In this document: positions 7,489-9,390 of the stretch, piece after piece | Layout: each line of letters opens with the position of its first letter | Position numbering within the stretch: the stretch's first letter is position 1 | DNA from: Sphingosinicella sp. | GTDB lineage: Bacteria; Pseudomonadota; Alphaproteobacteria; Sphingomonadales; Sphingomonadaceae | Length of the DNA: 64,000 bases | Reading direction: 5' to 3' | NCBI RefSeq assembly: GCF_013911755.1 | Contig: NZ_JACESP010000012.1 | Location: 1 to 64,000 of the forward strand | Made by a program: the position numbers and the translations under genes | Notes under the pieces: model-generated | What the model was told of the DNA's origin: nothing | Databases searched by the model: none | What the model saw: only the letters and a program-made list of their open reading frames with translations

Positions 7489-8094
7489 ATGAAAGCCCAG
7501 CTTGTCGCCCTCGCCCTCATCGGCCTCACAGCCCCCGCATTCGCCCAGGGCCAGCAGGGCGCAGAGGCCGCCGCGAAAGTCGCCGCCGGCACCTATACGG
7601 TCGATACCGATCACACGCAGATCGCGTGGGGCATCAACCACCTCGGCTTCAATGTCTATTACGGCATCTTCGGCGGCACGACCGGCACGTTGACGCTGGA
7701 CCCCGCGAAACCGGCGTCTGCGAGCGTCTCGCTGACCATACCGGTCGACCAGGTGACGACGACCAGCGAAAAGCTGAACGCACACCTCAAGACCGCCGAC
7801 TTCTTCGACACCGCGAAGTTCCCGACCGCCACCTTCAAATCGACGGCGGTCGTCGTCGACGGCCTCAAGGCGAAGATCACCGGCGATCTCACGATCAGGG
7901 GCATCACAAAGCCGGTTGTGCTGGATGCGCGCTTCACCGGCGCGGGTCCCAACCCGATGAGCAAGATCGAAACGGTGGGCTTCGAGGCGCGCGCCACCAT
8001 CAAGCGCAGCGATTACGGTATCAACTATGCGCTCCCCGTGCTCGGTGACGAGGTCAGCCTGCACATCACCGCCGCTTTCGAACGCCGCCCGTGA
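7489..8094 (+). CDS. YceI-family periplasmic lipid-binding-fold protein
   Basis: A 201-residue secreted protein. It has a signal peptide (first 20 residues, ending PAFAQ) and then a YceI-like beta-barrel domain: TYTVDTDHTQIAWGINHLGF near the mature N-terminus, DFFDTAKFPTATFKS in the middle and DLTIRGITKPVVLD toward the end, the recognisable landmarks of the family. Members bind isoprenoid-like lipids, but the ligand cannot be read here. The ATG at 7489 follows AGGAGCC. A 9-bp hairpin (8083-8091 with 8098-8106) holds the stop codon in its loop but has no U-tract. Confidence 0.9.
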   Translation: MKAQLVALALIGLTAPAFAQGQQGAEAAAKVAAGTYTVDTDHTQIAWGINHLGFNVYYGIFGGTTGTLTLDPAKPASASVSLTIPVDQVTTTSEKLNAHLKTADFFDTAKFPTATFKSTAVVVDGLKAKITGDLTIRGITKPVVLDARFTGAGPNPMSKIETVGFEARATIKRSDYGINYALPVLGDEVSLHITAAFERRP

Positions 8095-8146
8095 TCGCGG
8101 GCGGCGTGTCGGGCAAACTTACAGAGAGATTATAGCTAACGCGCTG

Positions 8147-8156
8147 TTAACTATCG
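8147..8156 (+). promoter_or_regulatory. Shared upstream box TTAACTATCG (candidate activator site)
   Basis: TTAACTATCG begins 42 bases before the GG of the -24 element of the PEP-CTERM gene. A 9-of-10 copy (TTAACCATCG, 9019-9028) begins exactly 42 bases before the -24 GG of the next gene's promoter. Identical spacing suggests a common activator. No known regulator motif was matched. Confidence 0.35.
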
Positions 8157-8187
8157 TCTATCGTGCAAAAGCTCAACTCTTCGATTC

Positions 8188-8203
8188 TGGCATCGTCCCT
8201 GCA
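8188..8203 (+). promoter_or_regulatory. Sigma-54-like -24/-12 promoter of the PEP-CTERM gene
   Basis: TGGCA (8188-8192) and CTGCA (8199-8203) place the invariant GG (8189-8190) and GC (8201-8202) 10 bases apart, the spacing required by RpoN. One base of the -12 consensus TTGCA differs. The predicted start near 8214 leaves a leader of about 29 bases containing the AGAGG ribosome site. Confidence 0.5.
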
Positions 8204-8242
8204 TCTGATGGACCGAACACGGTTTGATCAGAGGATTATGTC

Positions 8243-8911
8243 ATGAAGTATGCTTTCGCTTTTGCCGCCATGCTCGCTTCCACCAGCGCGGCGGCTGCTG
8301 TGATCTCGTCGTCCGTGGGCGGCGTCCCGGTCGGCGCCAACGTCTACGAGAGCTTCGACGCGATCGGCCCCGGCGGCACGACTGCGAGCGGTATCACCGT
8401 CTCGTTCTCCGGCACGGATGCTGGCACGGCTTCGCTTCCGAACGTCGGCGGCAAGTATGCGGCGCCCTATGTTTCGGGCGGCAACGGCACGCTGTTCGGC
8501 AACGCGCAGGCGGATGGCCAGGACGTCACCCAGTATCTGACGACCGGCATCGGCAGCGTCACGCTCGATCTTGGTGACGATCACCAGTATTTCGGCATCC
8601 TGTGGGGCTCGGTCGATACCTACAACTCGCTGGCCTTCTATGCGGGCGACACACTGCTCTTCACCTATTCCGGGTCTGATGTGGCCGCAGTCGCCAACGG
8701 CGATCAGGGTGCAGCCGGCACCTACTACGTGAACATCAATTCGGACACGGCCTTCAACAAGGTGGTCGCCTCCAGCTCGGGCTATGCGTTCGAGTTCGAT
8801 AACGTCGCGCTCGCCTACAAGCCGATCACCGACGTGCCCGAACCGGGCGCGCTCGCGCTCTTCGGTCTCGGCGCGATCGGCATTGCCGCCGCGCGTCGCC
8901 GCAAGGCCTGA
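8243..8911 (+). CDS. PEP-CTERM sorting-domain surface protein
   Basis: A 222-residue secreted protein. It has an N-terminal signal peptide (about 1-19, ending SAAAA), a Gly/Ser/Thr/Asp-rich central part without cysteines, and a C-terminal sorting signal of about 26 residues: VPEPG, a hydrophobic helix, then the basic cluster ARRRKA. In the known system an exosortase cleaves near PEP and the protein goes to the outside, often with exopolysaccharide. No exosortase gene lies in this window. The start follows AGAGG. Transcription is probably RpoN-dependent from 8188-8203 and ends at a strong hairpin. Confidence 0.9.
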   Translation: MKYAFAFAAMLASTSAAAAVISSSVGGVPVGANVYESFDAIGPGGTTASGITVSFSGTDAGTASLPNVGGKYAAPYVSGGNGTLFGNAQADGQDVTQYLTTGIGSVTLDLGDDHQYFGILWGSVDTYNSLAFYAGDTLLFTYSGSDVAAVANGDQGAAGTYYVNINSDTAFNKVVASSSGYAFEFDNVALAYKPITDVPEPGALALFGLGAIGIAAARRRKA

Positions 8912-8931
8912 ACAGCTTCGTTCTCAGGTGG

Positions 8932-8960
8932 AAAGGGCGACCTCCGGGTCGCCCTTTTTC
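8932..8960 (+). terminator. Rho-independent terminator of the PEP-CTERM gene
   Basis: A perfect 11-bp stem (8932-8942 with 8947-8957, arm AAAGGGCGACC), a 4-base loop and a T-rich tail (TTTTTC). It lies 20 bases after the stop. Confidence 0.85.
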
Positions 8961-9018
8961 TTTGTGTTCACAAGATGCTGTCGCCCATTTTTACAGTTCC
9001 GTGATCGTTCCTTCTGCC

Positions 9019-9028
9019 TTAACCATCG
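9019..9028 (+). promoter_or_regulatory. Shared upstream box TTAACCATCG (candidate activator site)
   Basis: A near-copy of the box at 8147-8156, with the same 42-base distance to the -24 GG of the promoter that follows. See that entry. Confidence 0.35.
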
Positions 9029-9059
9029 AAACGGTTGATGTGGCACGCGGCGGGAACGC

Positions 9060-9075
9060 TGGCACTGCTTTTGCA
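9060..9075 (+). promoter_or_regulatory. Sigma-54 -24/-12 promoter of the small secreted-protein gene
   Basis: TGGCAC (9060-9065) and TTGCA (9071-9075), with exactly 10 bases between GG and GC, match the conserved core of the RpoN consensus. The predicted start near 9086 gives a 26-base leader that contains GGAGAGGA. Confidence 0.6.
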
Positions 9076-9111: not shown

Positions 9112-9390
9112 ATGATCGTTCGGTATGGTATAGCAGCCTTGGCAACCCTTCTGGCAGCGGCCCCGGTCGCCGCTGAGCCCGTGGAAAACGGTTCGGAAGT
9201 CGCCGCCCTCCTCTCCGATCTCGAGGGTCGCTGCTGGGCCGTGGACATCGACGGTGCCATTCTCGATGCAGACGCCATGGCGCAGATCGAAGGCCCCATC
9301 GATATCGAACTCGAATGCGTGATGAGTGAAATCAAACCCGCATCCGCCAGTCCGAACCACAAGGTGCCGCTGCCCGCGAACGTCATCTGA
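9112..9390 (+). CDS. Small secreted protein of unknown function (92 aa)
   Basis: I do not recognise the family. It has a clear signal peptide (about 1-21, ending PVAAE), a short acidic mature region with two cysteines (41 and 69) that could form a disulfide, and no transmembrane segment or sorting signal. GGAGAGGA precedes the ATG at 9112. It lies downstream of the PEP-CTERM gene, separated by a terminator, and has its own near-consensus sigma-54 promoter sharing an upstream box with that gene. The two are therefore probably co-regulated, which hints at a role at the cell surface. Confidence 0.7.
   Translation: MIVRYGIAALATLLAAAPVAAEPVENGSEVAALLSDLEGRCWAVDIDGAILDADAMAQIEGPIDIELECVMSEIKPASASPNHKVPLPANVI

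Follow-up and report, generated by a model that had tools for sequence, protein, structure and literature searches.

Our analysis makes it rather probable that two adjacent genes of the window, by which we mean the whole 64-kb stretch of DNA analysed here, belong to the PrsK-PrsR/RpoN regulon and that a conserved box upstream of both is a third promoter element, with CtrA as the most likely protein to bind it. What we read from the sequence of the source genome (3.63 Mb, in 48 contigs) and its relatives is the presence, spacing and conservation of the three elements together with the RpoN, PrsK, PrsR, PrsT and CtrA genes, and from these we infer the binding events. Both genes would be part of the exopolysaccharide (PEP-CTERM) regulon, in which phosphorylated PrsR would bind a TGTCG-N6-TTTACA box ending 64 bases, or about six helical turns, upstream of the promoter, loop to the RpoN-RNA polymerase at -24/-12 and drive melting. 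The third element, noticed in an earlier note on this DNA, lies between enhancer and promoter in helical register with both, and it would most likely be recognized by CtrA, as a half-site at gene 2 and as a near-full TTAA-N7-TTAAC at gene 1. CtrA-P bound there would modulate loop formation and so couple matrix output to the CckA-ChpT-CtrA phosphorelay.

The features of the two genes are collected in Table 1. The PEP-CTERM domain of gene 1 reached 34.9 bits with Pfam (cut-off, 20.7), and its Npun_F0296 domain reached 77 bits with NCBIfam (cut-off, 29). A YceI-family protein (positions 7489-8094; Pfam, 159 bits) is encoded directly 5' of this gene. The protein of gene 2 has, by eye, a signal-peptide-like start; no Pfam or NCBIfam family exceeded its cut-off, and the PEP-CTERM domain, which is typical of the regulon but not required, is absent. 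The terminator that had been placed between the genes was found again as the single terminator-like site there (shuffles gave a mean of 1.3).

Table 1. Features of the two genes and their upstream regions (positions in the window)
Feature	Position	Strand	Sequence	Remark
PEP-CTERM box of gene 1	8107..8123	+	TGTCGGGCAAACTTACA	Haft motif 1, predicted PrsR site
CtrA-like site of gene 1	8136..8151	+	CTAA-N7-TTAAC	One mismatch to TTAA-N7-TTAAC
Third-element box of gene 1	8147..8156	+	TTAACTATCG	Starts 41 before TGGC
Sigma-54 -24/-12 promoter of gene 1	8188..8203	+	TGGCATCGTCCCTGCA	Predicted start near 8214
Gene 1	8243..8911	+		222-aa PEP-CTERM protein with Npun_F0296-type exosortase-dependent surface protein domain
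Terminator-like stem-loop between gene 1 and gene 2	8930..8959	+		
PEP-CTERM box of gene 2	8979..8995	+	TGTCGCCCATTTTTACA	Predicted PrsR site
Third-element box of gene 2	9019..9028	+	TTAACCATCG	Includes the CtrA half-site TTAACCAT; begins 41 before TGGC
Sigma-54 -24/-12 promoter of gene 2	9060..9075	+	TGGCACTGCTTTTGCA	Predicted start near 9086
Gene 2	9112..9390	+		92-aa protein with two conserved Cys (RCWA, ELEC)

A search of 298 family genomes found the 92-aa protein in five of the six listed genomes of the same genus, our own included, and gave weak matches in five genomes of other genera (E from 9e-6 to 0.009), while the source genome itself has a weak second match with an internal stop. 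The weak match in genome G005 is a 90-aa protein with a local score of 75, against 54 for the best of 500 shuffles. Its gene is preceded by the PEP-CTERM box (motif 1) with a spacer of 64, by TTAACC at -41 and by CGGCACGGTGTTTGC, while the remainder of the third-element box differs. That a distant homologue from another genus shares this promoter layout speaks for a genuine family of small secreted proteins in the regulon.

The -24/-12 promoters are where they had been described, with GG and GC ten bases apart at both genes, and leaders of 29 and 26 bases follow arithmetically from predicted starts 12 bases past the -12 GC. No sigma-70-like promoter was found between positions 8050 and 9500. 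Taken alone, the -24/-12 pattern was not enriched in the genome, with 24 sites where the reversed pattern gave 23; six of the 24 stand before PEP-CTERM genes. A listing of the regions 5' of -24/-12 sites revealed a second shared motif that had been overlooked, TGTCG-N6-TTTACA, and both copies end 64 bases 5' of TGGC. The TTTACA end is exact at gene 2 and one base off (CTTACA) at gene 1. At gene 1, 15 of the 17 positions are invariant by eye in five congeners, and at gene 2 TGTCGC and TTTACAGTTC are invariant in five congeners. In the PEP-CTERM/EpsH regulon, a 17-nt motif 1 ending in TTTACA is followed by a sigma-54 motif 2 (PMC1569441), with a mean spacer of 62.8 and a range of 32 to 92 (Haft et al. 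2006, PMC1569441). The spacer of 64 fits this mean, and we equated our motif with motif 1 by its published description (17 nt, TTTACA end and spacing).

The source genome encodes the whole circuit, including the rpoN, prsK and prsR homologues for which a check had been proposed. RpoN scored 414 bits (cut-off, 277), and PrsR (702 bits), PrsK (628), PrsT (551) and the XrtA-associated glycosyltransferase EpsB_2 (531) all exceeded their NCBIfam cut-offs and are encoded side by side in one stretch of the genome. Seventeen PEP-CTERM genes exceeded the Pfam cut-off. Counted without a shuffled control and allowing up to two mismatches, 11 of the 17 have a -24/-12 site and nine of the 17 have motif 1 as well; the remaining six have at best four to six mismatches in each motif. 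The combined pattern of motif 1, spacer and -24/-12 matched ten times in this genome and never in the reversed control. The ten comprise the promoters of gene 1, of gene 2 and of three other PEP-CTERM genes, a pair of orphan promoters and three sites with a weaker TGACA end, which may be chance matches. Gene 2 thus shares motif 1, spacing and -24/-12 with its neighbour, which bears out the proposal of a small secreted partner without PEP-CTERM domain in the same circuit.

Aquincola tertiaricarbonis, a betaproteobacterium, offers one comparison. Its PEP-CTERM gene pepA depends on RpoN1 and, like the genes studied here, is preceded by a sigma-54 promoter with an enhancer predicted upstream, whereas no CtrA-like element is described in the part of that report considered here (PMC9850573). 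In a DAP-chip experiment with the Desulfovibrio regulator DVUA0057, all five PEP-CTERM targets that had been predicted were enriched (PMC3333781); this regulator is probably an orthologue of PrsR. A circuit of this kind outside the betaproteobacteria had been put forward as an extension of what was known, but PrsK/PrsR and the box were already described across the Proteobacteria in 2006, with Rhodospirillum rubrum among the examples (PMC1569441). Motif 1, the sigma-54 motif 2 and PrsK/PrsR/PrsT are common to that regulon and to ours, while the helical quantisation of the spacer and the third element found here are not in the account as excerpted (PMC1569441). Haft et al. noted a few motif 1 sites before genes other than PEP-CTERM genes (PMC1569441). 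In contrast, members without PEP-CTERM recur here, as the 92-aa secreted protein, a membrane protein of about 76 aa and a small RNA. The core of the regulon is thus known, and it is the composite promoter architecture and these kinds of member that, judged by sequence, look new.

Enhancer and promoter keep a strict phase. Motif 1 followed by a spacer of 40 to 70 bases to TGGC and by -24/-12 was found in 105 of 149 family genomes, against one of 149 for the reversed pattern. Among the matches listed, 142 distinct promoters were analysed, seven of them from the source genome. Their spacers fall at 41 to 44 (39 promoters), 51 to 55 (24) and 61 to 66 (79), and none of the 142 has a spacer of 45 to 50, 56 to 60 or 67 to 70. 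At a period of 10.5 bases, the full set of 142 gave a Rayleigh R of 0.86 and the 55 PEP-CTERM-type promoters one of 0.85; because many of the promoters are orthologous, p-values for this phasing are overstated, and the empty gaps are the plain result. When spacers of 69 to 99 bases were allowed, 24 matches appeared in 13 of the 149 genomes, 17 at 72 to 76 and seven at 84 to 87. A series of about 43, 53, 64, 74 and 85 means whole helical turns, so that enhancer and promoter would keep the same face of the DNA.

Two kinds of member beside the PEP-CTERM genes stand behind many of these promoters in relatives. One is a conserved protein of about 76 aa with, by eye, two membrane helices (L082, L083, L092, L101, L107, L282 and others), which was found by way of its PrsR-type promoter. 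For five members examined, no Pfam or NCBIfam family exceeded its cut-off, and there was one weak AAA_27 match (13.9 bits of 22). The other is a small RNA. In many relatives, a promoter with a spacer of 64 or 65 is followed by no likely gene and then by a stem, GAGGCGGGRCC/GGYCCCGCCTC, with the loop CUGGUCUCC and the tail CUCCCCGAA, often with a terminator (loci including L081, L086, L110 and L247-L276). The RNA and a glutaredoxin gene are often convergent: a glutaredoxin motif lies on the opposite strand within 700 bases of 28 of the 37 RNA-class promoters, and the one such gene tested encodes Grx4 (TIGR00365, 152 bits against 117). L209, L225 and L235 were left out before the RNA alignment. 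A MAFFT alignment of 25 of the 34 RNAs misaligned the stem, and 13 of the 34 were kept for a covariance model; in this chosen subset, seven of ten predicted pairs showed compensatory change. The model found one copy of the RNA in each of 44 genomes out of the 149 of the family and, with stricter filters, found no such RNA in the source genome.

Thirty RNA loci were returned, of which 12 had not been examined before and L253 and L266, near contig ends, were left unscored. All 12 fresh loci have GG-N10-GC at the expected place (11 by script and L268 by eye). A loosened motif 1 was found by script in nine of the 12 and by eye, with one or two further changes, in three, and the third-element box likewise in nine by script and in a weaker form by eye in three. 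At the Rfam gathering score, 18 sources (the window and 17 loci) gave only tRNAs, and below threshold the RNA was overlapped by CcsR1 (17.8 bits, with 65.3 needed), Thr_leader (25.2, with 55 needed) and Leu_leader (19.3, with 50 needed). A literature search with unspecific terms returned nothing visibly on such a structured small RNA. The RNA may have a C-rich, possibly anti-Shine-Dalgarno loop and tail in common with alphaproteobacterial small RNAs of the CcsR and GsrN type, but it differs from these in its PrsR/RpoN-type promoter.

The third element is the box TTAACYATCG, which indeed lies 42 bases before the GG at both genes. These are the only exact copies in the 64-kb window; with up to one mismatch there are three matches against 2.07 expected, and 36 of 100 shuffles reach three. 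The count alone is therefore no excess, and the evidence for the box is its position and its conservation. In five congeneric genomes, our own included, the gene 2 box region CCTTAACCATCGAA is invariant while the surrounding sequence varies, and the gene 1 box region TGTTAACTAT is invariant as well, as are the first eight bases of the box at gene 1. To judge from these footprints, the box is an element of its own, lying between enhancer and promoter. The box is not the regulon-wide activator site, since only gene 1 of the 17 PEP-CTERM genes has it at the tested offsets. That it might itself be the PrsR site was also considered and rejected, because motif 1 stands at the published spacing and at nine of the 17 PEP-CTERM genes, against one of the 17 for the box. 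Within the source genome, the half-site TTAACCAT also occurs at -33 (counted by eye), off the usual offsets, before the PEP-CTERM gene L068.

Across the family, 21 of the 29 promoters of the 76-aa membrane protein have the box, with up to two mismatches, at -41 or -31 from TGGC, as do 21 of 37 RNA-class promoters, six of 55 PEP-CTERM-type promoters and six of 21 others, these classes having been assigned by simple rules, with at least three of the 37 (L209, L225 and L235) looking misassigned. At all other offsets of the 142 promoters, 13 matches were found in 6279 positions. The expectation that the box would be typical of exported proteins does not fit this distribution, and its absence from most PEP-CTERM-type promoters indicates that the circuit can do without it. 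When 84,980 genomes were scanned for the complete composite, 72 stretches were found, with a gap from box to TGGC of 20 to 21 in 26 and of 30 to 32 in 46 and nothing else, although 16 to 40 was allowed; the scan required the box and so speaks to its position, not its frequency. Sixty-eight of the 72 come from taxa that we take to be Sphingomonadales, and four come from unspecific MAG or uncultured sources. On sequence grounds, the box marks few members of the regulon in the source genome and, family-wide, above all the small RNA and the small membrane protein.

CtrA is known to bind a full site, TTAA-N7-TTAAC, or the half-site TTAACCAT (PMC3692519). CtrA is encoded in the source genome (NF045991, 424 bits; cut-off, 350). 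The half-site is exact at gene 2, where the upstream TTAA half is missing, and the gene 1 promoter of congener G085 has a perfect TTAA-N7-TTAAC. Among the RNA-class promoters, TTAA stands at -52 in seven of 37 (N7 from the box) and at -51 in six of 37 (N6); these 13 of 37 have it 11 or 10 bases 5' of the box start, and it occurs once elsewhere upstream of -43, as the bipartite site of CtrA predicts. In five stretches of the source genome (143.6 kb), TTAACCAT occurs twice, at gene 2 and 59 bases before the start of a gene whose product is a sigma-54 activator lacking a receiver domain. No named model reached its cut-off for this activator (FlbD, 297 bits; cut-off, 750); several identities are possible, FlbD among them but not demonstrably the right one. 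The same five stretches hold one TTAA-N7-TTAA, away from any likely start, and no CtrA-type site was found before ctrA itself in the stretch checked.

The box shares its half-site, and at gene 1 a near-full site, with the CtrA regulons of alphaproteobacteria (PMC3692519), but it is placed differently. In most CtrA-activated promoters, the site is at -35 (PMC11264516), whereas the box lies between enhancer and sigma-54 promoter, starting about 67 bases before the predicted start, with no overlap with the -35 of a CtrA-activated promoter. Upstream CtrA sites repress or delay at pilA of Caulobacter (PMC11264516), and CtrA is reported to influence exopolysaccharide and motility in sphingomonads (PMC8921679). 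As to the sign of the effect here, delay or repression would be more likely than activation.

A less probable but credible alternative keeps the same PrsR-RpoN promoters and lets the box bind another, dedicated factor, which might be a bending protein of the IHF kind, a MucR- or SciP-like protein or even PrsR. Two features, the CG conserved next to TTAACCAT, which is outside the published CtrA consensus, and the extension CCGCAGAAA, speak against CtrA. The extended box, TTAACCATCG-N4-CCGCAGAAA, had six matches in 149 genomes, four of them at PrsR-type promoters, two of which had shaped that consensus. A factor dedicated to this regulon would explain this concentration no less well than a global one, and these counts also led us to reject the idea that the extended box serves CtrA generally. 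The strict helical register would also suit an architectural protein. The reverse strand at gene 2 reads ATCAR-N4-TTC in four of five congeners by eye, near an IHF consensus, but neither gene 1 nor the family consensus shows an IHF-like core by eye; with no consistent core, the IHF reading was rejected. The TTAA at N6 or N7 and the exact TTAACCAT fit CtrA better than a dedicated factor.

Two further explanations appear very unlikely. The box could be a chance resemblance of neighbouring promoters, with only the -24/-12 and PEP-CTERM boxes mattering, and it had itself been flagged as a post hoc match. Its absence from most PEP-CTERM promoters of the source genome and the ordinary one-mismatch count in the window would agree with this, but the footprints at both genes in five genomes largely refute it. 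The fixed offsets in the 72 composites speak against it too, and so does the occurrence of the box with up to one mismatch at -31 in 13 of 29 promoters of the membrane protein and at -41 in 10 of 27 promoters of the RNA, where the best of 500 shuffles gave one. Descent from a local duplication, rather than selection, would account for two adjacent genes that have the same spacing (64) and the same box offset (41) but not for the lack of any likeness, by eye, between the upstream regions outside the elements or for the same layout before unrelated genes in other genera.

With CtrA as the preferred candidate for the box, these results turn a bioinformatic prediction from 2006 into a sharp promoter grammar, in which enhancer, third element and -24/-12 would stand at integral helical turns. 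The alphaproteobacterial cell-cycle phosphorelay gains a candidate link to the exosortase matrix system, and non-PEP-CTERM members are brought out, including a structured RNA without Rfam match across many sphingomonad genera. More speculatively, Sphingomonadales may possess a PrsR/RpoN sub-regulon gated by CtrA through a helix-phased site, whose most widespread outputs would be the small RNA and small exported or membrane proteins, the RNA layer coupling the cell cycle to matrix assembly; we regard this wider scheme as possible but doubtful.

Some promoters of this type stand apart from the classes above. In genomes G005, G035 and G099 (L089, L140, L198-L214, L236 and L237), they precede proteins whose last 30 residues have VPAP instead of VPEP or that end in GRRRR without a visible PEP. 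Two orphan PrsR-type promoters of the source genome (L115, C4:101,006-101,090, and L118, C44:5,846-5,930) have a spacer of 53 and share AATGCGCGCTTTCC between box and promoter, and start codons accompanied by a word like a ribosome site first appear about 310 to 320 bases downstream. Another orphan PrsR-type promoter of this genome (L037, C1:305,701-305,818) has a spacer of 86 and carries TTAACCAT at -52, by eye one helical turn from -41. A strongly folding stretch follows it (fold z, -5.1), and this promoter may drive another RNA.
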